Part shown: positions 3,114 through 32,996 of the stretch, piece after piece
Layout: every line of letters begins with the position of its first letter
Position numbering within the stretch: position 1 is the first letter of the stretch
Origin: Pseudomonadota bacterium
GTDB taxonomy: Bacteria > Pseudomonadota > Alphaproteobacteria > SMXQ01
DNA length: 32,996 nucleotides
Direction of reading: 5' to 3'
NCBI GenBank assembly: GCA_022566265.1
Contig: JADFJG010000029.1
Span: 1 to 32,996, forward strand
Position numbers and translations under genes: made by a program
Notes under the pieces: generated by a model
Seen by the model: the letters and a program-made list of their open reading frames with translations, nothing else
Told to the model about the DNA's origin: nothing
Database searches by the model: none

Positions 3114-3162
3114 GACCGCAACCGTTGGAACCTGATGAAAGTAAAGCCAAGAGGGTATTTTA

Positions 3163-4950: not shown

Positions 4951-4961
4951 GCAGCCGATCG

Positions 4962-5579: not shown

Positions 5580-5595
5580 GGAGGACGAGGAGCAC

Positions 5596-6321: not shown

Positions 6322-6331
6322 GGCTTGAAAC

Positions 6332-6691: not shown

Positions 6692-6909
6692 AGCCTTACG
6701 CCGCGGAAGCCTTACGCCGCGCCGCCTCTACGCTGACCGTCGGGGGGTTGATTTCGCCGGCCTTGGCCCATGGTTCCGTCGGCGTCGAGACCTCGGTGGG
6801 CTTCGGGCCATTGATTTTCCTGGCGGTTGGGTTCGCGGTCGTCGTTGTCCTGTTGGCCGAGAAGAAGTGGCGCAAGCGCAAGCAAAAGCGCGCCGACATC
6901 GGTCGATAA
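6688..6909 (+). CDS. Small single-pass membrane protein, start uncertain
   Basis: The frame ending at TAA 6907-6909 encodes a plausible short secreted or membrane protein. It has a basic n-region with two Arg, a hydrophobic stretch ending in SPALA (signal-peptidase-like), a short linker, one hydrophobic helix GPLIFLAVGFAVVVVLLA, and a highly basic tail (EKKWRKRKQKR). No ATG or GTG suits this product. A CTG at 6688 would give a CTGA overlap with the preceding stop and 73 residues; a TTG at 6748 would drop the signal segment. The region contains a 16-bp tandem duplication that may have changed the original start. No family is recognised. It is probably the last gene of the coxMNOP-like operon. 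Confidence 0.45.
   Translation: MKPYAAEALRRAASTLTVGGLISPALAHGSVGVETSVGFGPLIFLAVGFAVVVVLLAEKKWRKRKQKRADIGR
6690..6721 (+). repeat. Perfect 16-bp tandem duplication
   Basis: GAAGCCTTACGCCGCG occurs twice without a gap (6690-6705 and 6706-6721), covering the stop of the subunit IV gene and the beginning of the next small ORF. Because 16 is not a multiple of three, it shifts the downstream frame relative to any upstream start. Confidence 0.9.
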
Positions 6910-6988
6910 CGGCATCGCTTCGCGCCCGGCGACGCTTAGCTTACCTTTTCAGCATCTACGGATAGTGCTCCAGGACTAATGGCTTGGC

Positions 6989-7795
6989 TCAGCGCTCCAC
7001 GACCTTGCGGTACAGATGCCAGGTCGCATGTCCGAGCACCGGCATGACGACGGCGAGGCCGAAGAGAAAGGGCAAGGCGCCGATCACCAGGGCGCCGGCG
7101 ACGATGAAACCCCACATCGCCATCATCACCGGGTTGGCGATAACCGACCTTACCGATGTATGAATCGCCGTCATGGCGCTGATGTCCCGTTCTATTAGCA
7201 TCGGAAAGGACACCACGCTGATGGCCAACACCAAGACGGCGAAGAGGAAGCCGACGCCGCAGCCGACGATTATGAGCCCCCAGCCGGCGGGGGTGGTGAA
7301 AATCTGGCGCGCGAACTCCTCGATCGACGCCGGCGCCGCGGCGCCGAAAAACAGCTCGTAAATTCCCAGCGCCGAGCCCAACCAGGAGAAGTAGAGCGCC
7401 ATCATCACGATGCTGAGCGTCACGATGGCGCCAATGGAGGGGGATCGGAGAACGTCGAAGGCGTGTTTCCAGGCGATATCGAGACCGAGTTCGCGGCGGC
7501 GGCTCAACTCGTACAAGCCGATCGCCGCCAACGGGCCGAGCAGGGCGAATCCGGCGAGGATTGGAAAGATCAGCGGCAGTATGTCGTAGCCGGCCGTAAG
7601 CCTGATCAAGATGAGACCGACGATGGGATACAAGAAGACAAGGAGAAGAATGTGGCTTGGCTTGGCCTTGAAGTCGTCGAGCCCCTTGACCAAAACTTCC
7701 CTCAGGTCCGCCGGGCCGATCTTGCGGATCATCGGTCGATCGGGGCTCGCGCCAGTGTCGGCGACCGCCTTTTCGTCCGCCATTTCATCCGCCAT
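6989..7795 (-). CDS. DUF2189-family integral membrane protein
   Basis: A 268-residue protein with about six hydrophobic helices. Its N-terminal signature, a charged region followed by DLREVLVKGLDDFKAKPSHIL and then LAGFALLGPLAAIGLYELSRR, is typical of the DUF2189 family, membrane proteins often found near cytochrome oxidase genes but with no established biochemical role. The ATG at 7795 has an AGGAGG ribosome site 8 nt upstream. An in-frame ATG four codons further in is a less favoured alternative. It is convergent with the coxMNOP-like operon and divergent from coxB, so it separates the two oxidase operons. A role in oxidase biogenesis is only suggested by location. Confidence 0.8.
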   Translation of the reverse strand: MADEMADEKAVADTGASPDRPMIRKIGPADLREVLVKGLDDFKAKPSHILLLVFLYPIVGLILIRLTAGYDILPLIFPILAGFALLGPLAAIGLYELSRRRELGLDIAWKHAFDVLRSPSIGAIVTLSIVMMALYFSWLGSALGIYELFFGAAAPASIEEFARQIFTTPAGWGLIIVGCGVGFLFAVLVLAISVVSFPMLIERDISAMTAIHTSVRSVIANPVMMAMWGFIVAGALVIGALPFLFGLAVVMPVLGHATWHLYRKVVER

Positions 7796-8099
7796 GGTCG
7801 TGCCTCCTGAACCGCTTGTCGCCGCGGGCGCGACGCCAAAGGTGACACAGATCGCCCATTCCGGCCGCTGGTCACGTCAAGCTCGGACCCGCAGTCTCGA
7901 TGATTATACGCCGTCGGTTGTGCTTTGTCGCCTCGCCCGTGAAACCGTTATCATCCCTTTTGTGCCCGCGGCGCCCGCTAGTGGGGGGTTCTTTGGGTTG
8001 AGGGGCCGGCGGCATCGGGATGAGGCTTGCGCGATATCGACGACCCCTATATTTAGACCAGGGAACAGGCCCTCTGCCGATGGCAAAAGGAATCGAAGC
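7796..8099. other. Divergent intergenic region upstream of coxB
   Basis: These 304 bases lie between the DUF2189 gene (minus) and coxB (plus). A frame open across it on the plus strand starts inside the DUF2189 gene and is only an upstream extension of coxB without its own ribosome site. The recognisable element is the promoter-like block at 8019-8052. AAGGA about 8 nt before the ATG at 8100 fixes the coxB start. Confidence 0.6.
8019..8052 (+). promoter_or_regulatory. Promoter-like element upstream of coxB, twin of 1909-1943
   Basis: GATGAGGCTTGCGCGAT (8019-8035) is followed after 8 nt by CCCCTATAT (8044-8052). The 17-nt block and 9-nt box are identical to those before coxM, while flanking sequence is not. 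As a promoter, CTTGCG and TATATT are spaced 16 nt, placing the transcript start about 40 nt before coxB. Confidence 0.6.
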
Positions 8100-9035
8100 A
8101 TGATTTTCAGGACGGTACCCGCCGTCGTCGCGGTCCTGTTTATCCTAGGCGCCGGCGGGGCGGTATCGGCGGGTGCGCCTGAGCCATGGCAGTTGGGCTT
8201 TCAGCCCCCGGCCTCGCCGGTGATGACGGGCATCGACGATTTCCACAATTTTCTGCTCTGGATCATCATCCTCACCGCGCTGTTCGTAACCGGCCTTATG
8301 CTTTTCGTGATAATCCGGTTCCGGGCCAAGCGCAATCCGGTTCCCAAGAGAACCACCCACAACACGGCGATCGAGGTCATCTGGACCCTGGTCCCGATCA
8401 TGATACTGGCTGTTATCGCCGTTCCCTCCTTCAGGCTTCTCTATTTCATGGACCGCATCGAGGTGCCCGAGATGACGCTGAAGGCTATCGGCCATCAATG
8501 GTACTGGACTTACGAATATCCCGACCATGGCAATTTCACCTTCGACAGCACGATGATTCCGGACGAGGATATCAAGCCCGGCCAGATGCGCCTGTTGGAG
8601 GTGGACAACCGCGTGGTGCTGCCGGTCGACACCAACATCCGCATCCTCATGACCTCGACCGACGTGATTCACGCCTGGGCGGTGCCGGCCTTCGGCATCA
8701 AGACCGACACCATTCCCGGCAGGCTGAACGAAAGCTGGGTGCGGATCGATCGCGAAGGGGTCTATTACGGCCAGTGTTCGGAACTATGCGGAATCTATCA
8801 CGGCTTCATGCCCATCGCCGTCGAGGCGGTGTCCAAGGAGGCCTTCGGAAAATGGGTCGAGACGGCGAAGAAGAAGTTCGCCCGCGCCGATGGCGGCGCA
8901 CCGGCGGCGCGCGTCGCCCGCGCCGGCGGGCCTTCGCCACGCCGACCCGCTACGCCAGCGAAGCGTGGCGAGAGCGGCTCTCGCCTCGGCGAAGCCTCCG
9001 GCGGAGCCAGGGCCGGCCGCGCAGGCGGGCGGTAG
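8100..9035 (+). CDS. coxB: Cytochrome c oxidase subunit II
   Basis: Subunit II of the standard aa3 oxidase, 311 residues. It has a signal peptide (about 1-24, ending AVSAGA), two membrane helices (about 50-72 and 92-113), then the CuA cupredoxin domain. Ligands are H191 and C226-x-E228-x-C230-x3-H234-x2-M237, and the aromatic docking segment is GHQWYWTYEYPD at 131-142. The start is the ATG at 8100 with AAGGA upstream; a longer frame reaches back to 7611 but overlaps the DUF2189 gene. The last 36 residues (276-311, Arg/Gly/Ala/Pro-rich) are encoded by a dispersed palindromic repeat (8926-9030), so the ancestral protein probably ended near residue 275. coxA follows by 20 nt. Confidence 0.95.
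   Translation: MIFRTVPAVVAVLFILGAGGAVSAGAPEPWQLGFQPPASPVMTGIDDFHNFLLWIIILTALFVTGLMLFVIIRFRAKRNPVPKRTTHNTAIEVIWTLVPIMILAVIAVPSFRLLYFMDRIEVPEMTLKAIGHQWYWTYEYPDHGNFTFDSTMIPDEDIKPGQMRLLEVDNRVVLPVDTNIRILMTSTDVIHAWAVPAFGIKTDTIPGRLNESWVRIDREGVYYGQCSELCGIYHGFMPIAVEAVSKEAFGKWVETAKKKFARADGGAPAARVARAGGPSPRRPATPAKRGESGSRLGEASGGARAGRAGGR
8926..9030 (+). repeat. Palindromic repeat, long copy, inside the coxB 3' end
   Basis: The 20-bp left end (8926-8945, beginning GCGGGCCTTCGCC) and 17-bp right end CGGCCGCGCAGGCGGGC (9014-9030) are identical to the ends of a 45-bp copy at 10723-10767. The longer interior contains a hairpin with arms GGCGAGAG and CTCTCGCC around the loop CGG, and a further inverted pair TCGCCACGC / GCGTGGCGA. 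The copy is read through in frame as the CoxB tail, with the coxB stop three bases after its end. It has no transposase and resembles REP or rickettsial-type palindromic elements. Confidence 0.8.
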
Positions 9036-9052
9036 GCGGAGGAAGCGGATAG

Positions 9053-10702
<1,650 letters not shown>

Positions 10703-10722
10703 ATGACGGGCCCGGCCGGGGG

Positions 10723-10767
10723 GCGGGCCTTCGCCACGCCGAAGCGGCTTCGGCCGCGCAGGCGGGC
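10723..10767 (+). repeat. Palindromic repeat, short copy, between coxA and ctaB
   Basis: This 45-bp element has the same left 20 bp and right 17 bp as the repeat at 8926-9030, with only 8 bp between them. It folds into a hairpin with arms GCCGAAG and CTTCGGC and the loop CGG, and the outer bases GCCT/AGGC can also pair. The loop CGG is the same as in the long copy. Confidence 0.8.
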
Positions 10768-10787
10768 CATATCAGAGGAGGAGTTGC

Positions 10788-11753
10788 GTGTCCGATACCA
10801 CACTCAGGGTCGGGAGCCGTGGGCATCCAAGCACGTTCGAGGACCTTTCCGGCGCCGGTGATTACTTCGCGCTGTTGAAACCGAGGGTCATGTCCCTGGT
10901 CGTGTTCACCGGCTTCACCGGCTTGTTCCTGGCGCCGGGCGACCTTCATCCGGTCCTGGCGGCGGTGGCGCTGTTGTGCATCGCCGTCGGCGCCGGCGCC
11001 GCCGGGGCGATCAACATGTGGTACGACCGCGACATCGACGCCGTCATGAAGCGGACCCGCAACCGGCCCTTGCCGGCGGGCCGGATCGATCCCGGCGCGG
11101 CCTTGGGATTCGGCGTCACCCTTGGCATCGGCGCGGTGGTGATCATGGGGCTCGCGGTCAACCTCGTGGCGGCGGCCTTGCTGGCGCTGACCATCGGCTT
11201 TTACGTCTTCGTCTACACCATGTGGCTCAAGCGGCGCACGCCCCAAAACATCGTCATCGGCGGCGCCGCCGGCGCCTTCCCGCCGATGATCGGCTGGGCG
11301 GCGATGAGCGGCGAGGTGAGCCTCGCCCCGGTGTTGTTGTTCGCCATCATCTTCATGTGGACACCGCCCCATTTCTGGTCCTTGGCGCTTTATAGCCGCA
11401 ATGATTACGAAAAAGCCGGGGTGCCGATGCTGCCGGTGGTGGCGGGGACGCGCAAAACCAAGAAACAGATACTGCTTTATGCCATCGGCTTGGCGCCACT
11501 CGTCATGGCCCCTTACGCGCTGGGCATGTTCGGGGCGCTTTACGGCGTTACCGCGGCGGCGCTCGGCGCGCTGTTCGTGCTGGGCGCGGTGTGTGTGTGG
11601 TTCGATGGCACCGACGCATCGGCCAAGCGGATGTTCGCCTTCTCGATCCTCTATCTCTTTCTACTGTTCACCGTGATGATCGCCGACCGGATGATCGTGG
11701 GCGGCCCGGCGCCGGCCAGCGCCGCGATGTGCCCGTTGGGGATCTGTGTCTGA
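10788..11753 (+). CDS. ctaB: Protoheme IX farnesyltransferase (heme O synthase)
   Basis: UbiA-family prenyltransferase that converts heme B to heme O, the precursor of heme A for aa3 oxidases. It has 321 residues and about nine helices. The prenyl-diphosphate/Mg motif N76-x3-D80-x3-D84 lies in [21 protein letters not shown], and the second conserved region is [17 protein letters not shown]. The start is GTG at 10788 with a strong GAGGAG site. It is in the standard position between coxA and the small coxF-like gene. Heme A synthase (ctaA) is not in this window, so it must be elsewhere if heme A is made. Confidence 0.95.
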
Positions 11754-11754
11754 G

Positions 11755-11916
11755 ATGGCCCGGGACCGTCACATCTCTGGGCGGCACATTCCCGAGCCGC
11801 CCAGGCCCGAGCGGCACAAACGGCGGCGCTCCAGGAACCTGGCGCTGGCGGCGGTCCTGCTGGGACTGGTGGTGCTGTTTTACGCCGTCACCCTGGTGAA
11901 GTTCGGCGGGAGTTGA
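11755..11916 (+). CDS. Small CoxF-like membrane protein
   Basis: A 53-residue ORF starting with ATG one base after the ctaB stop and ending just before ctaG. The N-terminal 28 residues are very basic (ERHKRRRSRN), followed by one helix LALAAVLLGLVVLFYAVTLV. Small proteins of this architecture between ctaB and ctaG are standard in alphaproteobacterial cox operons (CoxF-type, assigned to oxidase assembly). Position, size and helix sequence support this. It is easily missed by gene finders with a 60-codon cutoff. Confidence 0.8.
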   Translation: MARDRHISGRHIPEPPRPERHKRRRSRNLALAAVLLGLVVLFYAVTLVKFGGS

Positions 11917-11918
11917 GG

Positions 11919-12491
11919 ATGGGACCGCATCGGCGCCGGCGAAATACCTTCGTGTCCGTGGGCCTTATCGCGGTGGTCGTCGGCATGGCCGGCCTGAGCT
12001 TCGCCGCCGTGCCGCTCTACCGCCTGTTCTGCCAGGTCACGGGCTTCGGCGGCACCACGCAATCGGCCCTGGTGGCGCCCGGCGCGGTGGGCCGGCGCGT
12101 CATCACCGTTCAGTTCAATGCCGATGTTTCCCCGGCGCTGCCGTGGCGTTTCCAGCCCGTCCGGCGGCAGGTGAAGTTGCGGGTGGGAGAGCAAAGCCTT
12201 GCCTATTACCGGGCGGAAAACCTTTCGGATTCGCCCCTTACCGGGGTGACGACGTTCAACGTCACGCCCTACAAGGCGGGTATTTACTTCAAAAAGATCG
12301 AATGTTTCTGCTTTACCGAGCAAAGCCTGGCCCCGGGCGAGAGCGTCGAGATGCCGGTCACGTTCTTCATCGATCCCGAGATCGTCAATGACCGCAACCT
12401 CGACGATGTCACCATCATCACCCTTTCCTACACCTTTTTCCGCGCCAAGGACGCCGGCGCAAAGGGAGAAGTTGACAATGACGGACATTGA
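11919..12491 (+). CDS. ctaG: Cytochrome c oxidase assembly protein CtaG (Cox11)
   Basis: Copper chaperone that delivers Cu to the CuB site of subunit I. It has 190 residues: a short basic cytoplasmic N-terminus, one membrane helix (about 11-31), then a periplasmic Ig-like domain. Copper ligands are visible as C38 after the helix (YRLFCQVTGFGGT) and the CFCF motif (C129, C131). The ATG at 11919 lies two bases after the coxF-like stop; an in-frame TTG two codons upstream is a less likely start. The 3' end overlaps the coxC start by 14 nt, indicating coupled translation. Confidence 0.95.
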   Translation: MGPHRRRRNTFVSVGLIAVVVGMAGLSFAAVPLYRLFCQVTGFGGTTQSALVAPGAVGRRVITVQFNADVSPALPWRFQPVRRQVKLRVGEQSLAYYRAENLSDSPLTGVTTFNVTPYKAGIYFKKIECFCFTEQSLAPGESVEMPVTFFIDPEIVNDRNLDDVTIITLSYTFFRAKDAGAKGEVDNDGH

Positions 12492-13284
12492 CGCCGGCGG
12501 GCACCGACAGAAACATCCCTACCACCTCGTCGAGCCCAGCCCGTGGCCCGTGGTCTGCGCCGCGTCGGCCTTTGTCCTCGCCCTCGGGTTGCTCTTGTTC
12601 ATGCACGACGTTACCTCCTGGGTGTTGTATATCGGCGCCGCCATGTTGCCGTTGACCATGTTCATGTGGTGGCGCGACGTCGTGCGCGAGGCGACCCATG
12701 AGGGCCATCACACGCCGACGGTGCGGATCGGCATGCGCTACGGCATGGCGCTGTTCATCGCCTCGGAAGTGATGTTCTTCGTGACTTTCTTCTGGGCCTA
12801 CTTCGGCGCCGCCCTGTTCCCCGCCGAGGCCACGGGAGGGGTATGGCCGCCCAAGGGGATCGAGACCTTCGATGCCTGGGACCTGCCGTTCCTCAACACC
12901 CTGATCCTGCTGAGTTCCGGCGTGACCGTCACCTGGGCCCATCACGCCCTGCTCGAGAACGACCGGCGGGGCCTCATTGTCGGCCTGGCGGTGACGATCG
13001 GGCTCGGCATAACCTTCACCGGCGTCCAGGCCTTCGAGTACGTCAACGCGCCGTTCGCCTTCAAGGGCGGCATCTATCCCACCACTTTCTTCATGGCCAC
13101 CGGCTTCCACGGCTTCCATGTCATCATCGGCACGATCTTCCTGATCGTCTGCCTGTACCGGGCCTGCAAGGGCCATTTCAAGCCCGACCATCATGTCGGC
13201 TTCGAGGCCTGCGCCTGGTACTGGCACTTCGTCGACGTGGTATGGCTGTTCCTGTTCACCTGGATTTACTGGTGGGGATCCTAG
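12478..13284 (+). CDS. coxC: Cytochrome c oxidase subunit III
   Basis: A 268-residue, seven-helix subunit III of the aa3 oxidase. Hallmarks are FIASEVMFFVTFFWAYF with the conserved Glu, GVTVTWAHHALL, GFHGFHVIIGTIFL and the C-terminal WYWHFVDVVWLFLF. The ATG overlapping the end of ctaG is chosen because AAGGGAGAA lies just upstream; a longer frame to 12388 would run through the ctaG coding sequence. It is the last gene of the standard oxidase operon. In many relatives the next genes are a DUF983 and/or SURF1 gene and thrC; here an M32 carboxypeptidase follows after 49 nt. Confidence 0.96.
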   Translation: MTDIDAGGHRQKHPYHLVEPSPWPVVCAASAFVLALGLLLFMHDVTSWVLYIGAAMLPLTMFMWWRDVVREATHEGHHTPTVRIGMRYGMALFIASEVMFFVTFFWAYFGAALFPAEATGGVWPPKGIETFDAWDLPFLNTLILLSSGVTVTWAHHALLENDRRGLIVGLAVTIGLGITFTGVQAFEYVNAPFAFKGGIYPTTFFMATGFHGFHVIIGTIFLIVCLYRACKGHFKPDHHVGFEACAWYWHFVDVVWLFLFTWIYWWGS

Positions 13285-19673: not shown

Positions 19674-19691
19674 AATTGACATGGATCAATT
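19674..19691 (+). promoter_or_regulatory. FNR/FixK-like binding site upstream of the molybdoenzyme operon
   Basis: AATTGACATGGATCAATT contains perfect 6-bp inverted ends AATTGA/TCAATT and matches the FNR consensus TTGAT-N4-ATCAA with one change (TTGAC-ATGG-ATCAA). A -10-like CATAAC lies at 19710-19715, which would place the box near -40, the usual position for direct activation. This implies induction under low oxygen by a Crp/Fnr-family regulator not encoded in the window. Confidence 0.7.
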
Positions 19692-19718
19692 ACCTTGGCC
19701 GTCGCCAGACATAACCTA

Positions 19719-19738
19719 CGCCGCAGGACAATGCGGCG
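19719..19738 (+). repeat. Hairpin at the start of the molybdoenzyme operon leader
   Basis: CGCCGC (19719-19724) and GCGGCG (19733-19738) form a perfect 6-bp stem around 8 nt, close to the predicted transcript start. It may protect the 5' end of the mRNA, or be chance in GC-rich DNA. Confidence 0.35.
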
Positions 19739-19809
19739 CGTCAAGCTTGAGTGGCGGCGAGAGGCATTGGGGAGATGCCCAGCAACGCCGCGTGAGTTCA
19801 AGGGCGCGT

Positions 19810-20487
19810 ATGAAGCGGTTGTCAAGGTTAGGAAAGGCTTTGCTCGAGCTCTTTACCACCTATCCCGTGGGGGGATTGGCCGCCGTTTTTCTGGCGGGCA
19901 TGATGTTCTGGGGCGCCTTCAATTGGAGTCTGGAACTGACCAACACGGAAGCGTTCTGCATCTCGTGTCACGCCATGAAGCAGTACGTCTACACCGAATA
20001 CAGAAAGACCGTCCATTTTCGAAACCGGACCGGCGTCCGCGCTTCCTGCCCCGATTGTCATGTCCCCAGGGAATGGATCTACAAAGTCGCGCGTAAGGTC
20101 GGCGCGACCAACGAGCTCTTTCACTGGCTGAAGGGATCCATCGATACGCCCGAGAAATTCGAGGCCAAGCGGGAACAGTTGGCGCGGGGCGTGTGGGCGA
20201 GCATGGAAGCGACCGATTCGCGCGAATGCCGGAACTGTCACGGCACCGGCGCCATGAACGCCGAGGCGCAGACAGCCCGTGCGCGCACCTGGCACGCGCT
20301 GGCGGGCAAGTGGCGAACGACCTGCATCGAATGCCACCAGGGGATCGTCCATTCCCTGCCGCGGGGCTTCGACAAGGAAGCCCTGATGGATAAGTTTCAT
20401 GACCGGATGGAGAGGGAAAAGGTGAATTGCCGCCTATGTCACGAGGGCATCGTGGCGCCGCCGCCGGGCGAGGGCTGGGGGCGATAG
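19810..20487 (+). CDS. NapC/NirT-family membrane cytochrome c with five heme sites
   Basis: Membrane-anchored multiheme cytochrome that would take electrons from quinol into the periplasm, 225 residues. One N-terminal helix (about 17-38) anchors it. Heme motifs are C50-ISCH, C80-PDCH, C140-RNCH, C172-IECH and C207-RLCH. The first four match the NapC/NrfH pattern, including CISCHAM and CHQGIVHSLP. The fifth, CRLCHEGIVAPPP, near the C-terminus, is not usual for a protein this short and looks like a copy of the fourth site. The start chosen is the ATG at 19810 with AAGGGCG upstream, because an upstream extension to 19573 lacks any signal sequence. It is the first gene of a seven-gene operon. Confidence 0.88.
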   Translation: MKRLSRLGKALLELFTTYPVGGLAAVFLAGMMFWGAFNWSLELTNTEAFCISCHAMKQYVYTEYRKTVHFRNRTGVRASCPDCHVPREWIYKVARKVGATNELFHWLKGSIDTPEKFEAKREQLARGVWASMEATDSRECRNCHGTGAMNAEAQTARARTWHALAGKWRTTCIECHQGIVHSLPRGFDKEALMDKFHDRMEREKVNCRLCHEGIVAPPPGEGWGR

Positions 20488-20535
20488 CGGGCAAAGGTTC
20501 GAGGGACACGGAAGGATGACGATTCGGAGGCTGAT

Positions 20536-21192
20536 ATGATCGCTGGTAAATGCATGGTTTGGGCGCTGGCCGGAGTGGTTTGGCTGGCGTTCGCCGGCGC
20601 CGGCCTTGCCCAGACGGCGACGCCGCTGACCCTGAAATTGGGTAAGGAGTTGTTTAACGAGAACTGCGCCGTCTGCCACCAGGCCGACGCCATCGGCAAG
20701 CCGGGCGTGGCGCCGTCGCTGACCAATCCGGAGTTGCTCGCCATCGCCTCGGACAAGTTCTTCATGGCCAACATCCGCGATGGGCGCGTCGACACCGGCA
20801 TGCCGCCCTTCGCCCATCTCGGGCGGAAGAACGTCCGCGCCATCGTCGCTTACCTGCGCTCCCACGCCAGGGAACCGAGCCGGGCCGCCCAAGTGGCTTC
20901 CCAGCCCGACGCCCACGGCGATCCCCGCCTCGGCAAGCAGTGGTACGACTTCATCTGTTCCACCTGCCATGGCGTCAACGGGGACGGCTATGAGGCCGGC
21001 GGCACCGGCACGGCCATCGGCCTGGCGGGGTTCCTGGATAAGGTCTCCGACGGCTTCATCCGCGAGACCATCAAGAAGGGCCGCACCAATACCCGCATGC
21101 TGGCGTTCCAGGGGCCGGCCGGGTTGGCCGACCTTTCCGATCGGGAGATCGATGACATCATCGTTTATCTGCGCAACCTGGTTAAGAAATAG
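20536..21192 (+). CDS. Periplasmic diheme cytochrome c
   Basis: A 218-residue c4-like cytochrome made of two class-I cytochrome c domains. The signal peptide ends near GLAQ (residue 26). Heme-binding motifs are CAVCH (44-48) and CSTCH (141-145); likely axial methionines are M89 in TGMPPF and the Met in NTRMLAF. GGAGG lies 6 nt before the ATG. It sits between the membrane cytochrome and the molybdoenzyme, where a Nap operon would use NapB, but it is not NapB-like in sequence. It is the probable electron carrier to or from the molybdoenzyme. Confidence 0.9.
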   Translation: MIAGKCMVWALAGVVWLAFAGAGLAQTATPLTLKLGKELFNENCAVCHQADAIGKPGVAPSLTNPELLAIASDKFFMANIRDGRVDTGMPPFAHLGRKNVRAIVAYLRSHAREPSRAAQVASQPDAHGDPRLGKQWYDFICSTCHGVNGDGYEAGGTGTAIGLAGFLDKVSDGFIRETIKKGRTNTRMLAFQGPAGLADLSDREIDDIIVYLRNLVKK

Positions 21193-21207
21193 CTGGAGGG
21201 TTGAGTC

Positions 21208-23913
21208 ATGAAACGCATCAAGACAGTCTTGTCACGCCGGGAGATGCTGAAGACCAGCGCCTTCATCACCGCCTCCGCCGGCGCCGCCGGGCTCATGGTC
21301 GGCGCCAATCCGGAGTTGGAGGTGGCATCCGCGAAGGCCGCGGAAGCTGGGGATGAGCGCACCACCGCCCTGTCCCAGTGCCCCTATTGCGGCGTCGGCT
21401 GTGGCACCATCATCCAGGTGGAGAACGGCAAGATCGTCTCCATGCGGCCCGACAAGGACCATCCGACCAATTACGGCCTGCAATGCATCAAGGGCCTGAC
21501 CGCCGCCGAGCCGATGTATGTCGACCGCATGGAAGGCGATTCCTACGTCCGCAAGGACGTCTGGGCGGAGTGGAACAAGCCCGGCCATGGCGATGTCGAA
21601 TTCATCAGCAAGACCAAGGGCTCGTTCGACGAGGAACATTTCGTCCGCGTGCCCTACGAGAAGGCCTCCGACCTGGTCGCCCGCAAGATCGCCCACCTGG
21701 CCAAGAAATACGGCGGCAACTCCATCGGTCTTTACGGTTCCGGCCAGCTCACCATGGAGGGGCAGTACATCGAGAACCTCTTCATGAAGGGGATTCTCGG
21801 CTCCAACACCATCGAGGCCAATGCCCGCATGTGCATGACCTCGGCGGTCACCGGTTATTTCGCCACCTTGGGTTCGGACACGCCGCCGCTCGCCTATGAG
21901 GACATCGAGATCTGCGACATGATCATGCATTTCGGGCACAACGCCCGCGAATCGCATCCGATCATCTTCTGGCGCGCCGCCGACTACAAAAGGAAAACGA
22001 ATATTCCGACGGTGGTCGTCGACCCGCGCCGCACCGGCACGGTGATGGGGTATGAGGACATCAACCCCAAGAACTCGATCCATGTCCCCATCCTCAACGG
22101 CGATATCAGCTTCCTGAACGCCATCGCCCATGTGCTGCTCAAGGACCATGACGACGTGATCGACTGGGATTTCGTCAAGAATCACACCACGGGCTGGAAG
22201 GAATATGTCGATGGCGTGCTCAAGGATTATAGCCCGGAGCAGGTGCAGGACCGCATGGGCGGGCCCAATCACGACGTCTCGCCGGCGCTGATCCGCAAGA
22301 TCGCCGGCGTGTTCGCCGACGCCACCCGCAAGCGGCTGGCGCGCGCCAAGGGCACGCAGACCGGCGGCTATGGCGGCGTCATCATCATGTGGGGCATCGG
22401 CTTCAATCAGCACATACACGGCCAGCACAACGTCATCGCCATCATCAACCTTTTGACCCTGACCGGCAATCTGGCCAAGCCCGGCTGCGGCCCGTTCTCG
22501 ATGACCGGCCAGCCCAACGCCATGGGCGAGCGCTTCACCGGCGGTCTCACCGGGCGTCTGCCCTTCAACATGCCGCTGAAGGATGCGGCGCACCGGCGGA
22601 AGATGGCCAAGTTCTGGCGGGTGCCGGAGCAGAACCTGATCGACGCCATGAACTCCAAGAACCCCGGCTTTGCCGTCGGCATGATGGAGCGGGCGCTCAA
22701 GGGTGAGGTAAAGGCGTTCTTCTTCGTCTACGCCACCCATATCGACTTGCCGGACCAGTACAATCTGGTGCGTCCGGCGATCGCCAAGACCTTCAACGTG
22801 GTGCAGGAGATTTACCGCCACGCGCCCAACAACCTCTATGCCGACGTGATCTTCCCGGCGGCGACCTGGGGCGAGGTCGAGGGCATCTATATCAGTTCGG
22901 AACGGCGCCTCAACATTTGCCAAAAGGCGGCCGAGCCGCCGCCGGGATGCCGTCCCGACTTGGACATGGTCCTCGACAAGGCCAAGGAGATCGGCACGCT
23001 TCTCGGGCTCGACATGAAGAAGGTCCTGCCCTATGAGCGCAAGGCGGACGGCTTTTACGATCCGCAGGAAATATTCCGCGACATCATCCGGGCGTCGGAC
23101 GGCACCGACACCGATCTCACCGGCATCCTGGAAGTCGAGAAGCTGGACAAGACGGAGCCTTACGAACAGCTGGCGGAGCTGCGCGGTATCCAGTGGCCGG
23201 CGCCGAGTTACGAGATCGCCAAGAACGGCGGCACCAAGCGGCGCTTCATGCTGCAGGAGGGCGATTGGAAGAACCGGCCCTACGGCTATTTCCGCACCAA
23301 GGACGGCAAGGTGCATATGAAACTGGTCCACCAGGACTATTCCGAGCGGGAAAAATGGACCAAGGAGCTGATGAGATTCGGCGTCGAGAAGGACTTTTAC
23401 ACCATCGACCACATGGACCTCATCAAAATGGGGCGTGACAAGGGCCTGACGCCCGATATGCCGGATGAAGATCATCGCCACAAACGCTGGCAGGATGTCC
23501 CCAAGGACAAGTTCCCTTACTGGTTCGCGCTTGGCGTCGTCTATGAACATTTCCATACCGCCAAGTCCATGCGCAGCCCGACGACGCGCCGGCTGGTGCC
23601 CGAGATGTATGTCGAGATGCATACCGAGGACGCCAAGGATCTCGGCATCAAGGACGGCGACAAGGTGCGGGTGGTGACGAGGCGTGGATCGCTCGAGGCG
23701 CGCGCCCAGGTCGGCACCAATTCCCTGGTCAAGCCGGCGCGCAACGGCGTGCCGCGCGGCTTCATGTTCGGGCCGTGGAACCTCTCGGTCGCCGACAGCG
23801 CCGACCCGAAGAAGAACAAATGGCTGGCCAACGGTGTGACCAGCCGCGTCTGGGATCCCGTCTCCGGACAGGTCGACTTCAAGAAGAGCGCCTGCCGGAT
23901 CGAGAAGATCTAG
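21208..23913 (+). CDS. NapA-like periplasmic molybdopterin oxidoreductase, substrate unknown
   Basis: DMSO-reductase superfamily catalytic subunit, 901 residues. It has a Tat signal (SRREMLK, residues 9-15) and a hydrophobic stretch to about residue 30. The [4Fe-4S] motif is C58-x2-C61-x3-C65-x27-C93, with the conserved lysine (K95) between cluster and cofactor. The molybdenum ligand is most likely C209 in EANARMCMTSAV, matching ARHCMASAV of NapA. The cofactor-binding region GFNQHIHG...LTGNLAKPGCGPFSMTGQPNAMG is also NapA-like, and a molydop-binding C-terminal domain is present (about 780-890). It is longer than typical NapA (about 830), with extra sequence around 640-760. No NapB or NapD accompanies it. 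Nitrate reductase activity is possible but not established. A GGAGGG ribosome site precedes it. Confidence 0.88.
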   Translation: MKRIKTVLSRREMLKTSAFITASAGAAGLMVGANPELEVASAKAAEAGDERTTALSQCPYCGVGCGTIIQVENGKIVSMRPDKDHPTNYGLQCIKGLTAAEPMYVDRMEGDSYVRKDVWAEWNKPGHGDVEFISKTKGSFDEEHFVRVPYEKASDLVARKIAHLAKKYGGNSIGLYGSGQLTMEGQYIENLFMKGILGSNTIEANARMCMTSAVTGYFATLGSDTPPLAYEDIEICDMIMHFGHNARESHPIIFWRAADYKRKTNIPTVVVDPRRTGTVMGYEDINPKNSIHVPILNGDISFLNAIAHVLLKDHDDVIDWDFVKNHTTGWKEYVDGVLKDYSPEQVQDRMGGPNHDVSPALIRKIAGVFADATRKRLARAKGTQTGGYGGVIIMWGIGFNQHIHGQHNVIAIINLLTLTGNLAKPGCGPFSMTGQPNAMGERFTGGLTGRLPFNMPLKDAAHRRKMAKFWRVPEQNLIDAMNSKNPGFAVGMMERALKGEVKAFFFVYATHIDLPDQYNLVRPAIAKTFNVVQEIYRHAPNNLYADVIFPAATWGEVEGIYISSERRLNICQKAAEPPPGCRPDLDMVLDKAKEIGTLLGLDMKKVLPYERKADGFYDPQEIFRDIIRASDGTDTDLTGILEVEKLDKTEPYEQLAELRGIQWPAPSYEIAKNGGTKRRFMLQEGDWKNRPYGYFRTKDGKVHMKLVHQDYSEREKWTKELMRFGVEKDFYTIDHMDLIKMGRDKGLTPDMPDEDHRHKRWQDVPKDKFPYWFALGVVYEHFHTAKSMRSPTTRRLVPEMYVEMHTEDAKDLGIKDGDKVRVVTRRGSLEARAQVGTNSLVKPARNGVPRGFMFGPWNLSVADSADPKKNKWLANGVTSRVWDPVSGQVDFKKSACRIEKI

Positions 23914-23956
23914 GCCAGGTCTTTCCCCGATCGCGGCCGGGATAGGGAGTAGCCCC

Positions 23957-24529
23957 GTGGAACGCAGGACCGTTCTCAAGGCACTGATCGCCGGCGCCGC
24001 CGCGGCGCTGGCGCCCAACACCGTCCGCGCGGCGCGGTTCAGTTCCACCTTGCGCTATCTGCGGCCGCCGGGCGCCTTGGCGGAAGAGGATTTCTTGGCC
24101 CGCTGCATCAATTGCGGCCAGTGCGGCGAGGTCTGCCCCAACCGCTGCATCAAATATTTCGGCCTGGAGAACGGCCTCGGCTCCCTCGATACGCCCTACA
24201 TCATCCCGCGGGAAAAGGGCTGCATCCTGTGCATGAAGTGCGGCGACGTGTGCCCGACCGGCGCCATCCAACCCGTCGCGCGCGAGGCCGGCGCCATCCT
24301 CGATGGCGTCAAGATGGGGCACGCCCGGGTCGATGAAAGCCTGTGCCTGTCCTTCCAGGGCAAGACCTGCGGGGTGTGCTACCGGGCCTGCCCGTTGCCC
24401 GATATAGCCATCACCGTCGGCCGCCTGGAACAGCCCCATGTCACCGACAAATGCGTCGGCTGCGGGCTTTGCGAGCGCTCCTGCATCCAGATGCCCCAGG
24501 CGATCCGCGTCATCCCCGACCGTGGTTAG
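23957..24529 (+). CDS. napG: NapG-like periplasmic ferredoxin with four [4Fe-4S] clusters
   Basis: A 190-residue iron-sulfur protein with a Tat-like N-terminus (ERRTVLKALIAGAAAAL). Four cysteine groups can each ligate a [4Fe-4S] cluster: C50-INCGQCGEVCP, C89-ILCMKCGDVCP, C130...CGVCYRACP and C166-VGCGLCERSC. NapG normally works with NapH to oxidise quinol and pass electrons to the periplasmic reductase. The start is GTG at 23957 with AGGGAG upstream. The stop TAG abuts the napH ATG. Symbol given by family and pairing with NapH. Confidence 0.88.
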   Translation: MERRTVLKALIAGAAAALAPNTVRAARFSSTLRYLRPPGALAEEDFLARCINCGQCGEVCPNRCIKYFGLENGLGSLDTPYIIPREKGCILCMKCGDVCPTGAIQPVAREAGAILDGVKMGHARVDESLCLSFQGKTCGVCYRACPLPDIAITVGRLEQPHVTDKCVGCGLCERSCIQMPQAIRVIPDRG

Positions 24530-25579
24530 ATGTCAGCGGGCGGGAAAATGACCGGGCAACGCCACAAGCCGTTCTTCCTCTGGCGCCACCTGAACAAGCT
24601 GCGTTGGGTGAGCTTGAGCATCGTCTTCGCGATGCTCGTGGCGCTGCCCTTCCTGCACCTCTACCAGACCTATGTCGCCGCCCATGCCTATGATCTGCTG
24701 TCGCCGCCGGAGGCGCGGATCTACGATGTCATGGAGGCGTTGACCCAGCCCTTCGTCAGCGATCCGGCGGAGGATCTGGACGCGGTCAAGGGCAACACCT
24801 GGTCGGGAACCTTCTGGGGCCTGAAGCTTTCCGATCCCCTGGCGGCGCTCGGCCAGATGGCGGCGGGACGGACGCTTTACTGGCCGTTCCTCGTCACCGC
24901 GCTCATTCCCGTCGTCTTGACCGCCCTGTTCGGACGCTTCTTCTGCGGCTGGATCTGTCCGGCGACCTTCATTTACGAGCTCAACGGCAATTTCGCCTCC
25001 TGGCTGCGCTGGGCCGGCTTCAAGCCCGGCAACCGCCACTTCGACAAGCGCATCAAATACGGGGTGTTGGCGCTGGGCGTGATCGGCTCGGCGATGACCG
25101 GTTCGGTCGTGGTCGCCGCGGTCTATCCGCCCGCCATCATCGGCCGCGAAATCTACTACGTGATCGCGCTCGGCGGTTTCGGCGCCGGCATGGTGTTCTT
25201 CCTGGCGACCTTGGGGTTCGACCTCTTGGTGGCGCGGCGGGGCTTCTGCCGCTACCTCTGTCCGGGAGGGGCGCTTTACGCCCTGCTCGGCCGCTACCGC
25301 GTGGTGCGTATCCGCCGCATCGTCGAGAACTGCAACGACTGCGCCAAATGCAACGCCATCTGCGAATTCGGTCTCGATCCCCTGGGCGACGGTTTCGGGC
25401 AGGAATGCAACAATTGCTCGGCCTGTATCGCGGTCTGCCCGACCGACGCCCTGACCTTCACCATCAGGCCCACCGACATTCCGGCGCAGGGGCCGGGGCA
25501 TCTGGGCTGGCGGTACCGCCGCGAGGCCGAGGCCCGGGTCCAGGGCGGGCAGCCCGCAAGGGAAGATAAGGCGGCCTGA
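24530..25579 (+). CDS. napH: NapH-like quinol-oxidising membrane iron-sulfur protein
   Basis: A 349-residue membrane protein with about four helices. It carries the two CX3CP motifs that define NapH/NosR-type proteins: C139-GWICP-type (CGWICP) and C240-RYLCP. The cytoplasmic C-terminal domain has two [4Fe-4S] sites: C268-C271-C274-C278 and C293-C296-C299-C303P. The insert after helix one (about 50-110) is typical of the family's periplasmic loop. It starts immediately after the napG stop and overlaps the next gene by one base (TGATG), so NapG, NapH and the next protein are translated together. Predicted role: quinol dehydrogenase partner of NapG. Confidence 0.9.
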   Translation: MSAGGKMTGQRHKPFFLWRHLNKLRWVSLSIVFAMLVALPFLHLYQTYVAAHAYDLLSPPEARIYDVMEALTQPFVSDPAEDLDAVKGNTWSGTFWGLKLSDPLAALGQMAAGRTLYWPFLVTALIPVVLTALFGRFFCGWICPATFIYELNGNFASWLRWAGFKPGNRHFDKRIKYGVLALGVIGSAMTGSVVVAAVYPPAIIGREIYYVIALGGFGAGMVFFLATLGFDLLVARRGFCRYLCPGGALYALLGRYRVVRIRRIVENCNDCAKCNAICEFGLDPLGDGFGQECNNCSACIAVCPTDALTFTIRPTDIPAQGPGHLGWRYRREAEARVQGGQPAREDKAA

Positions 25580-26175
25580 TGGAACGCTGGGTCCCCATCG
25601 TGTCCTTGGTGGTCATGGCGTGGTTGACGATGACGGGCGTGGCGGGCGCGCACCATGTGTTGGGCCGTCCCGCCTACAGTTTGAACGAGGACTCCAACAC
25701 CCCGCCCGCCATGCAGGCGGAAGTGCGGACAGGCGACTATTTCGTGACCTACATGGCCTTCCCGGCCTTCCCGCGGCCGGGACATCCCGGCAGGATCAGC
25801 CTCTATGTCAGGCGCATCGACGACGGAACGCCCTTCCAGGGCAAGGTCGCCTTCAAGGTGCGCGGATCATCCTGGCTTTCATGGCTGGGAATCGGCAATG
25901 AGTCCCACGGGCTGGGCCTTCGGCCGCCGGACGACAACGTCTTCCGCCAGGGTTTCCTCTTCGAGAAAGCGGGCGATTACATCATCACCGCCCAGTTCGA
26001 GGCGGATGGCGAGCCCTATGTCATCGACTTCCCGCTGCGTATCGGTGAACCGCCGCCCATCGGCCCCATCGGCATCGCCGTCGGTGCATTGGCGATCGTG
26101 CTCTTGACCGTCAACATCGTCCAGCGCCGCCGCTCGATGACCGGCAAGATCCGCGGCGCCCGTGAAGGCAAGTAA
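25579..26175 (+). CDS. Membrane-anchored periplasmic protein, possible FixH/YtkA-like fold
   Basis: A 198-residue protein with a signal peptide (cleavage near GVAGA, residue 23), a periplasmic domain of about 120 residues beginning HHVLGRPAYSLNEDSNTPP, and one C-terminal helix (about 163-182) with a basic cytoplasmic tail. Beta-strand-like alternation and phrases such as RISLYVRRIDDGTPFQGKVAF suggest an Ig/YtkA-type domain, as in FixH or copper-site accessory proteins, but I cannot assign the family with certainty. The N-terminal His pair right after the signal cleavage could bind metal. It is co-translated with napH and upstream of another ferredoxin, so it belongs to the molybdoenzyme system, perhaps as assembly factor or partner. 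Confidence 0.7.
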   Translation: MERWVPIVSLVVMAWLTMTGVAGAHHVLGRPAYSLNEDSNTPPAMQAEVRTGDYFVTYMAFPAFPRPGHPGRISLYVRRIDDGTPFQGKVAFKVRGSSWLSWLGIGNESHGLGLRPPDDNVFRQGFLFEKAGDYIITAQFEADGEPYVIDFPLRIGEPPPIGPIGIAVGALAIVLLTVNIVQRRRSMTGKIRGAREGK

Positions 26176-26186
26176 GAGGCGCCCCC

Positions 26187-26210
26187 GGGGGGTATGATGG
26201 GGGGTATGAT
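26187..26210 (+). repeat. Tandem 12-bp repeat duplicating ribosome site and start codon
   Basis: GGGGGGTATGAT occurs twice without a gap (26187-26198, 26199-26210). Each copy supplies a G-rich ribosome site and an ATG pair in the same frame as the ferredoxin gene. The repeat therefore gives four in-frame ATG codons (26194, 26197, 26206, 26209). Confidence 0.85.
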
Positions 26211-26808
26211 GAAACGCCGGGAATTCTTCAGGCTGGGGGCGCAAAAAACCGCCCGCGCCGCCCTGCGATTGGCCGCCGACAGGGCCGCCAGGCGGGCGAC
26301 ACGCCGGATCAGGCCCCCCTTCGCCCTGGAAGAGCCGGATTTCCTGCTGGCCTGCACCCGATGCGACAAATGTATCGAGGCCTGCGATTACGACGTGCTG
26401 TTCAAGCTGCCGGCCCATCACGGTCTCCAGGCGGGCGGCACGCCGGTAATGGACTTGCTCAATCGCGGCTGCCACATGTGCCAGGACTGGCCCTGCGTCA
26501 AGGCCTGTGAACCCGGCGCCCTTAAGCTCCCGGCGCTTGACGGAGACGCGCCGGGGCCACCGGCCAAGTTGGCGCGCGCCGGGATAGATGTGAATGTTTG
26601 CCTGCCTTACCTCGGCCCCGAGTGCGGCGCCTGCAGGGATTCGTGTCCCATCCCGGGGGCGCTCGAATGGCAAGGCGGGATCAAGCCCGTCATCGACGAG
26701 GAACGCTGCACCGGATGCGGCCTCTGCCGGGAGGCCTGCATCGTCGACCCCAAGGCGATCGAGATCGGCGCCCTCGTTCCCGGAAAGCCGACGGCTCCCT
26801 ACTTTTAG
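26194..26808 (+). CDS. Second four-cluster ferredoxin (NapF/NapG-like)
   Basis: A 204-residue protein from the first ATG, or 199 from the ATG at 26209, with a Tat-like KRREFFRLG motif directly after that last Met, which favours the downstream start. Cysteine groups are CTRCDKCIEAC, CHMCQDWPCVKAC, the spaced group ECGACRDSCPIP, and CTGCGLCREAC, giving four potential [4Fe-4S] clusters. The sequence after the first group reads CDYDV, not CP, so that cluster is slightly non-standard. It resembles NapF/MauM-type ferredoxins and differs clearly from the NapG at 23957. It is the last gene of the operon, 18 nt after the previous stop, and is convergent with algH. Confidence 0.85.
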   Translation: MMGGMMKRREFFRLGAQKTARAALRLAADRAARRATRRIRPPFALEEPDFLLACTRCDKCIEACDYDVLFKLPAHHGLQAGGTPVMDLLNRGCHMCQDWPCVKACEPGALKLPALDGDAPGPPAKLARAGIDVNVCLPYLGPECGACRDSCPIPGALEWQGGIKPVIDEERCTGCGLCREACIVDPKAIEIGALVPGKPTAPYF

Positions 26809-27591: not shown

Positions 27592-29802
27592 ATGTCAGTT
27601 GGTGACCCTTCGTCCCGTGCCCGGCCCGAAACCGGTCCCTTATCCCCGAGGCCGGGCCGGTCCCTTGGGCCGCGGCCATTCTCCGGCCTTGGCGTGGCGC
27701 TGATGGCCTTGGCGCTGTCCTGGGCGGTCTGGCCCGCGCCCGCCGCCTTGGCGGCGGCGTCCGACTGGGCGCGGACCGATCAATCGAGGGTCAGGCTGGT
27801 CAGCACCGTCGACGCCGCCGGTGACGGCGAGGTCCTTCTTCTCGGGCTCCAGTTCCGCATGGCGCCGAAGTGGAAGACCTATTGGCGCTCGCCCGGCGAT
27901 GCGGGTTATCCGCCGAAGCTCGACTGGACGGGCTCGGAGAATGTTGGCGGCGCGGCCGTCTCCTGGCCGGTGCCCGAGCGTTACGCCATCTTCGGGCTCA
28001 ACACCTTCGTCTACACCGATGAGGTGGTGCTGCCGATCGAGATCACCCCCAGCGATCCGGGAAAGCCGGTCCGTCTGCGCCTGGCCGTCGATTACCTGCT
28101 GTGCGACCAGATCTGTATTCCCTACGCCGCCAAGCTCGCCCTCGATCTGCCGGCCGGGCCGGCGGTGCCGAGCCGCTTCACCAGGCTCATCGGCCGCTAT
28201 GTCGCCCGCGTGCCCGGCAACGGCGCGGACCACGGCCTCGCCATAGAACAGGTGCGGCTCACCGGCAAGGAAACGGCGCCGGTGCTCGAGGTGCTGGCCC
28301 GCTCGCGCCTTGGCTTCACCAAGCCGGACATCCTGGTCGAAGGGCCGAAACAGCTGCAGTTCGGCATTCCCGATGTCGAGATTTCGGGCGGCGGCGGGAC
28401 GGCGCTGTTGCGAATACCCGTCACCGTCAGTGGCGAGACCGCGGTGCCGCCCAAGAGCCCGGAGCTTACCCTGACCTTGGTCGACGGCGCGCGCGCCATG
28501 GAGAAGACGGTCACCGCCGTTCCCGGCATGGAAGAGGCGGCGCCATGGAGCACGTTGTTCACCATCCTCGCCCTGGCGCTCTTGGGCGGTTTCATCCTCA
28601 ACCTGATGCCCTGCGTGCTGCCGGTGCTGTCCATCAAGCTTCTCGGTATGATCGAGCATGGCGGCGGTGAACGGGGCCGGGTCAGGCTCGGATTCCTGAT
28701 GACGGCGGCGGGCATCCTGTTCTCGTTCCTGGTGCTGGCGGTGGCGGCCTTGGGGTTGAGAAGCGCCGGCGTCGTCATTGGCTGGGGCATCCAGTTCCAG
28801 CAGCCCGTCTTCCTCGTCGCCATGTCTCTCCTCCTCACCCTTTTCGCCTGCAATATGTGGGGAATATTCGAGATCCGCCTTCCCGGTTGGGCTTCCGGTG
28901 TCGCCGCCGGAGGCGGGGAGGGCCAGAGTCTCCCCGCCGCCTTTGGCACCGGCGCCTTCACCACCTTGGTGGCGACACCGTGCTCGGCGCCGTTCCTCGG
29001 CACCGCCGTCGGTTTCGCGCTGTCCCGCGGCGCCTTCGAGATCTTCGCCGTGTTCGCGGCGCTCGGCGTCGGTCTTGCGCTGCCTTATCTCCTGGTGGCG
29101 GCGGCCCCTGGCCTGGCCAGACACCTGCCGAGGCCCGGACCCTGGATGGTGGTCTTCCGCAGGGTCCTGGGCGTAGCCCTGGCGGCGACGGTCCTGTGGC
29201 TGATCTCGGTGCTGGTGGTACAATCGGGGATCAACGCCGCCCTTGCCGTCGGCGCGCTGATGGCGGTGACGGTCCTGGTAATCTGGGGCCGCGCCCGCTT
29301 GCCCCGGGCGGGCGCCGGGGCGGGACGCGCCTTGACGGCCGGCGCCGTCGGCGTCGTCGCGGTCCTGGCCTTCCTGGCGCCGGCATTCCTCGCGCCCGAG
29401 GGGACGGAGAGACCTGTCGCGGGCGTCGCCGACGGCGTCTGGCGGCCGTTCGACAAGGTTCAGATCCTCAATCACGTCGGCGCCGGCAAGACCGTCTTCG
29501 TCGACGTCACCGCGGATTGGTGCCTCTCCTGTCAGGTCAACAAGGCCCTGGTGCTCGACCGTGGCGAGGTCGCCGCCCGTCTCGGCGGTGATCAGATGGT
29601 GGCGATGCGGGCCGACTGGACCCGTCCCAGCGATGAGATTTCCGCCTACCTCGCGAGCTTCGGCCGCTACGGCATCCCGTTCAACGTCGTCTACGGCCCC
29701 GGCGCGCCGTCGGGCGTGGTGCTGTCCGAGCTGCTGACGGCGAACGAGGTGCTCGAAGCCTTCGGACGCGCCGGCGGCGGCGTCAAATCCTCGCGCCGCT
29801 GA
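27592..29802 (+). CDS. dsbD: DsbD/ScsB-type thiol-disulfide transporter
   Basis: Large membrane protein moving reducing equivalents from cytosolic thioredoxin to the periplasm, 736 residues. Three parts are visible. The periplasmic N-terminal domain (about 58-310) has a CDQIC pair (C171, C175). The central membrane domain has about eight helices with the paired cysteines C341 (MPCVLPVLSIK) and C464 (TPCSAPFLGTA). The C-terminal thioredoxin-like domain (about 620-730) has CLSC (C644, C647). The N-terminal domain is larger than in E. coli DsbD (565 residues), closer to ScsB-type proteins. A signal peptide is preceded by a 30-residue hydrophilic extension, so the true start may be the GTG at 27601 or later; the ribosome site is weak. 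Reductant could serve cytochrome c maturation or Cu-site cysteines of the oxidases. Confidence 0.88.
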   Translation: MSVGDPSSRARPETGPLSPRPGRSLGPRPFSGLGVALMALALSWAVWPAPAALAAASDWARTDQSRVRLVSTVDAAGDGEVLLLGLQFRMAPKWKTYWRSPGDAGYPPKLDWTGSENVGGAAVSWPVPERYAIFGLNTFVYTDEVVLPIEITPSDPGKPVRLRLAVDYLLCDQICIPYAAKLALDLPAGPAVPSRFTRLIGRYVARVPGNGADHGLAIEQVRLTGKETAPVLEVLARSRLGFTKPDILVEGPKQLQFGIPDVEISGGGGTALLRIPVTVSGETAVPPKSPELTLTLVDGARAMEKTVTAVPGMEEAAPWSTLFTILALALLGGFILNLMPCVLPVLSIKLLGMIEHGGGERGRVRLGFLMTAAGILFSFLVLAVAALGLRSAGVVIGWGIQFQQPVFLVAMSLLLTLFACNMWGIFEIRLPGWASGVAAGGGEGQSLPAAFGTGAFTTLVATPCSAPFLGTAVGFALSRGAFEIFAVFAALGVGLALPYLLVAAAPGLARHLPRPGPWMVVFRRVLGVALAATVLWLISVLVVQSGINAALAVGALMAVTVLVIWGRARLPRAGAGAGRALTAGAVGVVAVLAFLAPAFLAPEGTERPVAGVADGVWRPFDKVQILNHVGAGKTVFVDVTADWCLSCQVNKALVLDRGEVAARLGGDQMVAMRADWTRPSDEISAYLASFGRYGIPFNVVYGPGAPSGVVLSELLTANEVLEAFGRAGGGVKSSRR

Positions 29803-29949
29803 AACATACGCAGCGTCGAAGCACCCGGTATGGCCCTTCGGTTTGAGGGGTGAAATCGCACCCGCTTGCGCCTATGATAACAGATTAGGTACTAACCGAT
29901 GAGGCCGGGGGCACCCCGGCGCCAACGCAAATCGCGGGGAGAGCCGACA

Positions 29950-32361: not shown

Positions 32362-32996
32362 ATGCGAAGATTCTTTTCAGCCACCCTGGGGCTGGGGTTA
32401 CTTGCCGCCCTGTTTCCGATCCCCGGCCATGGGGCCCAGCCCTTCCAGGATGCGCCGATCCCGGGGACGTCCCGATCCGCCGTCACCTTGGGCCGCGACC
32501 TCGACGGCGACGGCGACCCTGATGAAATTACGATCCGCTTGGAGGTGATCGAGGTCACCGAGGAGGTTTATCCCGGCGAGTTCGTGAAATTCTGGGTGTT
32601 TGCCCCCGAGGGCCGGGGCATGACCCCGGTTGCCCGGGTGCCGAGTCCCACCATCCGCGTCGAGGAAGGCGACCGGGTGCGCATCATCCTTCTCAACACG
32701 CACTACTTTCCGCACACGATTCACCCCCACGGAACCATCCACCCCAATGCCATGGACGGGGTGCCCGACATCACCCAGGCGGCGGTCAAGCCCGGTGAGT
32801 CCTTTACCTACGAGTTCACTGCGAAAAACCCCGGTACGTTCTTCTATCACTGCCACGTCCAGCCCGATGTCCACGTCCTCATGGGCCTGGTGGGGATGCT
32901 GATCATCGAGCCCAACCGGCCAAAGAACATATTCACTCATCTCGTGATTGGCGCGGGGCGGATGCCGGACCTCGCCAAGGCCACCGTGGAGGAGGG
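32362..32996 (+). CDS. Multicopper oxidase, N-terminal part (runs off window)
   Basis: At least 211 residues of a secreted multicopper oxidase. A signal peptide (about 1-24, ending GHGA) is followed by a short stretch DLDGDGDPDE (46-55), which resembles a calcium-binding loop. A cupredoxin domain follows with HTIHPHG (H118, H121, H123) and FYHCHVQPDVHVLMGLVG (H163, C164, H165, H171, M174). These are the type 2/3 copper and type 1 copper ligands. A type 1 site in the first domain is more like two-domain laccases than three-domain CotA types, but the rest of the protein is needed. GGGAGG lies 8 nt before the ATG at 32362. It is the next gene after the small secreted protein, with a terminator between them. 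Confidence 0.9.
   Translation, partial: MRRFFSATLGLGLLAALFPIPGHGAQPFQDAPIPGTSRSAVTLGRDLDGDGDPDEITIRLEVIEVTEEVYPGEFVKFWVFAPEGRGMTPVARVPSPTIRVEEGDRVRIILLNTHYFPHTIHPHGTIHPNAMDGVPDITQAAVKPGESFTYEFTAKNPGTFFYHCHVQPDVHVLMGLVGMLIIEPNRPKNIFTHLVIGAGRMPDLAKATVEE

Follow-up and report, generated by a model that had tools for sequence, protein, structure and literature searches.

Periplasmic nitrate reductases (Nap) such as those of Escherichia coli (napFDAGHBC) and Cupriavidus (napEDABC) are twin-arginine-exported enzymes with a Cys-ligated molybdenum (Mo) site and an N-terminal [4Fe-4S] cluster, and the E. coli operon also encodes NapC, NapG and NapH as partners. Nap systems without NapB are known (napCMADGH type; napD-G-H-C-A of Selenomonas pSRC1), and these combine NapC and NapGH with NapD and an enzyme of ~750 amino acids (aa). 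Here we describe an operon of seven closely packed genes, all on the + strand (19810-26808), in a 32,996-nucleotide stretch of alphaproteobacterial DNA (contig JADFJG010000029.1 of assembly GCA_022566265.1; hereafter the window). Window proteins were assigned with Pfam and NCBIfam. The operon shares with Nap the export signal, the Mo site, the iron-sulfur cluster and the NapC, NapG and NapH partners. However, NapB and NapD are missing from the operon and from the genome; a diheme class I cytochrome c is present instead, together with a five-heme NapC, a second NapG and a protein resembling CrdA and PmoD, and the enzyme has altered second-sphere residues and does not belong to the NapA clade. 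Like Nas, the enzyme has Asp-x-Pro-Pro and NAMG-x-R motifs, but it differs from Nas in its twin-arginine export signal, in its respiratory partners and in having an FNR box upstream of its operon. The operon probably encodes a dissimilatory nitrate reductase of the periplasm that belongs to neither the NapA nor the Nas lineage and works without NapB and NapD; that nitrate is the substrate we infer from its genes and their relatives.

The catalytic molybdoenzyme (21208..23913) has 901 aa, a twin-arginine signal (SRREMLK), a [4Fe-4S] motif and the Mo ligand at Cys209-Met210. NapA is its top match in NCBIfam and heads the search against PDB sequences, yet its scores are far below the curated cut-offs for NapA (NF010055, 339.5 against 904 bits; TIGR01706, 322.1 against 930.55 bits) and for NasC (221.7 against 1100 bits). 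The preliminary description of this DNA had noted that the enzyme exceeds typical NapA in length by ~70 residues, and this is the difference from NapA of E. coli and of Cupriavidus; the biggest clade-specific insertions are at residues 713-761 and 128-144. Length by itself is not diagnostic because Campylobacterota have NapA of ~925 aa (PMC13223375).

Trees were built with Nap of E. coli, Cupriavidus, Sulfuricurvum, Selenomonas and others, Nas-type sequences and formate dehydrogenases. In the first, some branches were very long (Adlercreutzia L064 among others), and a second was built with a different set. The family forms a separate clade (100/100) with ~27-34% identity to NapA. It falls outside Nap (100/99), where Selenomonas Nap groups with canonical NapA, and outside Nas, which forms its own clade (99/97) excluding the window enzyme; Nas is the nearest group, weakly supported (84/23). 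The approximately unbiased (AU) test rejected placement of the enzyme with heterodimeric NapA, Selenomonas Nap excluded (p = 0.0016), while a sister position of the clade to all Nap was not rejected (p = 0.227). The earlier suggestion that the enzyme lies outside true NapA therefore stands. No description of the clade or the gene set was found in the literature searched, which largely excluded subscription papers and preprints. On these sequence comparisons the enzyme is apparently a third, undescribed and widespread branch of the Nap/Nas group beside NapA and Nas.

A scan of genome contigs detected 39 close relatives with 68-88% identity over the best segment, and the next match had only ~36%; the 35 aligned clade members are 71-88% identical to the window enzyme. 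Assemblies of the relatives are alpha- and gammaproteobacterial, Gallionellaceae ('Ca. Ferrigenium bremense') and Magnetococcales. Ten carriers besides the window genome were found in a sample of 399 Pseudomonadota species (68-74% identity; next match 40%), and at least one genome (G230, with the same contig as locus L052) is in both carrier sets. The plasmid collection yielded distant Nap/Nas only, all with <60% identity to the enzyme. Isolate names of some carriers (SI-numbered bins, 'Arabian') suggest oxygen-poor waters, and one carrier is a Gallionellaceae iron oxidiser.

Active-site residues were compared between 35 aligned family members, window included, and Nap and Nas proteins, with residues mapped onto the window enzyme by motif and alignment (roles of equivalent residues: PMC13223375; PMC12769810). 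The four Fe-S cysteines (C58/61/65/93), Lys95, Arg207, Cys209-Met210, Asp224, Gln401 and Arg442 are invariant in 35/35 members. Arg450 and His781 are equally invariant, as in canonical NapA. The formate dehydrogenases compared have Cys-His at the Mo site, whereas the enzyme has Cys-Met and thus lacks this hallmark. Because the nitrate-reductase core residues are kept, an anionic oxyanion is the likely substrate, with nitrate as the leading candidate and room for a shifted preference. An AlphaFold model of the catalytic subunit was of such low quality (pLDDT 61.7) that it was set aside, and we make no claim about channel geometry.

In the window genome (G000, 94.7% complete), NapB (PF03892) and NapD (PF03927) have no match and NarG has no full match, so the absence of NapB and NapD first reported for the operon extends to the assembly as a whole. 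The genome does encode NirK above cut-off (contig C117). Its closest same-genus relative (G001) has canonical NapA and lacks the window-type enzyme, a complementary distribution. The carrier set comprises 40 genomes including G000, mostly incomplete assemblies in which single absences are unsafe. Among them, NarG is above cut-off in one, NapB is present in 17 and NapD in 15; NirK is found in four and a strong cytochrome-d1 match in 17. A NirS-type or NirK match occurs in 20/40, and half of these (10/20) are without NapB and full NarG. Strong PF02239 matches were not all taken to be NirS, since NirN and NirF match as well; when two flagged genomes whose d1 matches are possibly NirN (G065 and G092) are removed, the count is 8/18. 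In the 399-species sample, NarG is present in 0/10 other carriers and 67/388 non-carriers, and strong cytochrome-d1 matches occur in 4/10 and 49/388, respectively; these counts are not corrected for kinship. At the end of the window itself, a partial copper nitrite reductase match (32512-32916) falls within a multicopper-oxidase-like frame that the window end truncates; the genome's full NirK is encoded elsewhere.

Regulatory sequences and neighbouring genes may also link the operon to anaerobic nitrate respiration. An FNR/ANR-type box, TTGACATGGATCAA (19676..19689, + strand; 9/10 match to TTGATNNNNATCAA), is located 134 bp 5' of the NapC-like start at 19810; a longer frame from 19573 exists, and homologues back the start at 19810. 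A single box is weak alone, as 0.39 are expected by chance in the window at one mismatch. Boxes matching at least 9/10 positions occur upstream of 19/36 homologous operons, compared to 0.49 expected from mononucleotide shuffles. The original view of an atypical NapA-type operon that lacks napB and napD and has an anaerobic control site was right. Upstream of nirK in the window genome no FNR box was found (best 7/10). Near the operon, NarX/NarQ-type sensor genes are found in four relatives' loci, three of which also have NarL-type regulator genes; FNR/Crp-type regulator genes are found in five and MoaA genes in six (types were assigned from scanned cluster members, two for NarX/NarQ and one each for NarL, FNR/Crp and MoaA). 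By inspection, locus L116 has MoaA and ModA/ModB-like genes near the operon. Nitrate is favoured as the substrate because of the active-site residues, the NarX/NarL, FNR and MoaA neighbours, the genome-level presence and absence of genes, and the within-genus replacement of canonical NapA. These lines of evidence point to nitrate, none of them proving it. The preliminary description had left the substrate as nitrate or something else, which was too open, as several lines narrow toward nitrate.

The first gene encodes a membrane-anchored cytochrome c of the NapC/NirT family (19810..20487; PF03264, E=9.5e-69, 231 bits against a cut-off of 24.1) with five CXXCH motifs, a number found in 22/23 homologues compared. 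The second product is a periplasmic, CcoP-like diheme class I cytochrome c (20536..21192; PF00034/PF13442) with two CXXCH motifs, and its best relative of solved structure is CcoP of cbb3 oxidase (E=1.7e-12). Its gene is the immediate 5' neighbour of the catalytic gene across the family. The enzyme gene is followed by a first NapG-like four-cluster ferredoxin (23957..24529; NCBIfam NapG, E=5.6e-38) and a NapH-like membrane quinol dehydrogenase ferredoxin (24530..25579; TIGR02163, E=2.4e-43); both are clear homologues that miss the curated NCBIfam cut-offs (130.5 against 269 bits and 148.5 against 213.05 bits). After an anchored periplasmic protein (25579..26175), the last gene encodes a second, family-conserved NapG-like ferredoxin (26194..26808; NCBIfam NapG, E=3.3e-32, also under cut-off). 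The seven genes, their close packing, their family assignments and the FNR-like box are as first described. The presence of two quinol entry routes, NapC-like and NapGH, had been called redundant unless they serve different acceptors or the flow can reverse; E. coli napFDAGHBC has both, so this arrangement is ordinary.

The conserved gene order is diheme cytochrome, enzyme, napG1, napH, a further NapG-like gene, the CrdA/PmoD-like protein gene, a ~520-aa polyferredoxin gene (19 loci) and napG2, with napC at either end of the operon where seen in relatives. Most relatives have the further NapG-like gene between napH and the CrdA/PmoD-like gene. The window operon has neither this gene nor the polyferredoxin gene, and a search of the window genome with the further NapG-like protein gave good matches only to the operon's own two NapG-like genes. 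Inspection of one locus (L055:13707-17066) revealed a 1120-codon, adenylate-cyclase-like frame with a long repeat region between the CrdA/PmoD-like gene and napG2.

The 25579..26175 product (198 aa) has no Pfam or NCBIfam match. It has a signal peptide, an Ig-like beta domain and a C-terminal transmembrane helix, and the family alignment shows an invariant His-His at the predicted mature N-terminus. In a Foldseek search, its AF2 model (pLDDT 86.9) matched CrdA (E=6.4e-5, TMt 0.82) and PmoD (E=1.9e-4, TMt 0.60), while a profile search against PDB sequences gave nothing significant. The predicted structure resembles these copper proteins in fold only; the protein may act in assembly or in connection with copper. 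It is nearly carrier-restricted in the 399-species sample (G000, 6/10 other carriers and two non-carriers), and in the two non-carriers its gene adjoins the polyferredoxin gene, with the enzyme missing. In two loci (L112:9398-11835 and L113:8400-10579), its gene and that of the ~520-aa polyferredoxin form a two-gene pair without an adjacent molybdoenzyme gene, and for this reason the pair is regarded as a separate module. A copper reductase function for the whole operon was rejected, given that this pair occurs apart from the enzyme and that the window has no polyferredoxin gene. In locus L105 (G198:C162:16042-16587), the CrdA/PmoD-like frame has one in-frame TGA, possibly through misassembly or because the copy is broken. 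Downstream of the operon, the window contains a gene for a DsbD-like thiol:disulfide protein (27592-29802), which adjoins an AhpC/redoxin-type gene at 29899.

If the operon encodes a nitrate reductase, quinol would be oxidised by the five-heme NapC-like protein, the NapH-NapG-like ferredoxin chain or both, and electrons would pass to the diheme cytochrome c in place of NapB. As the putative direct donor, this cytochrome would reduce the [4Fe-4S] cluster and, through it, the Cys-ligated Mo site, where nitrate would be converted to nitrite. NirK from the same genome could then reduce nitrite to NO. The enzyme would mature without NapD, and the operon would be induced under low oxygen, presumably by FNR itself.

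Several observations weigh against nitrate as the substrate, and some of them favour the main alternative, which we consider unlikely: that the enzyme acts on a different oxyanion or on an N- or S-oxide (e.g., chlorate/perchlorate or selenate) and has only architecture and anaerobic control in common with Nap. Throughout the clade, Phe or Leu443 stands beside the channel Arg where the Nap and Nas compared have Glu, Val777 replaces their pterin-patch Arg, and Phe782 replaces their Trp. Nas retains the Glu (443) and the Arg and Trp (777/782), with positions 777 and 782 of one Nas sequence (L003) falling outside the alignment. Thr225 replaces the Glu of NapA, and Thr is also found in two Nas. The perchlorate reductase channel is lined by aromatic residues (PMC12769810). 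The clade sits on a very long stem (2.0-3.4 changes per site), which permits a change of function, and in the 17/40 carriers with NapB the operon would be a second system. One of the ten nitrite-reducing carriers without NapB and full NarG (G094) has a NarG-like match below threshold. The cytochrome-d1 enrichment among carriers of the 399-species sample is modest, includes NirN/NirF-type matches and ignores kinship. A substrate other than nitrate is harder to reconcile with the retained channel arginines, Asp and Met, the association with NarX/NarL and FNR, the carriers in which nitrite reductase occurs without NapB or full NarG, and the replacement of canonical NapA within a genus. In the neighbourhoods we noticed no gene specific to another oxyanion, although no search was aimed at such genes.

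Two further explanations concern the electron donor and the identity of the enzyme. The CcoP-like cytochrome in place of NapB, two clusters of haem-copper oxidase genes that precede the operon in the window (2238-13284; homologues of COX1/COX2/COX3, with an HPEVY motif in each cluster) and the iron-oxidising Gallionellaceae carrier would suit an operon whose diheme cytochrome trades electrons with the cytochrome c pool, either for nitrite oxidation or for bc1-fed, energy-conserving nitrate reduction. This seems quite improbable, as NapC-like and NapGH-like quinol-side parts are conserved in the family and FNR boxes lie upstream of the operons. In addition, no NapA-type enzyme is known to oxidise nitrite. 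That the enzyme is plain canonical NapA whose napB and napD were lost or misassembled could be argued from NapA being its top match in NCBIfam and PDB. We give this hardly any credence, since the NF010055 score is far under cut-off, the enzyme belongs to its own 100/100 clade, nesting in heterodimeric NapA was rejected, and the napB-less synteny recurs across alphaproteobacterial, gammaproteobacterial and Gallionellaceae relatives. A nitrate reductase independent of NapB and NapD remains our preferred reading. More speculatively, and with considerable doubt, the operon may represent a third, apparently undescribed Nap/Nas lineage in several proteobacterial groups that needs neither NapB nor NapD, has a diheme donor tied to the cytochrome c pool and a copper-protein-like accessory factor, and has either a shifted substrate or bc1-linked, energy-conserving nitrate reduction.

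The markers of nitrate reduction examined (NarG, NapB and NapD) have no over-threshold match in the window genome, and the score of the enzyme is itself far under the NapA cut-offs. If it is a nitrate reductase, about half of the nitrite-reducing carriers identified would be listed as lacking the first step of denitrification. The operon is a direct test case for whether NapB and NapD are dispensable and for how second-sphere residues tune the Nap/Nas site, and the enzyme clade bears on low-oxygen and iron-linked nitrogen cycling.

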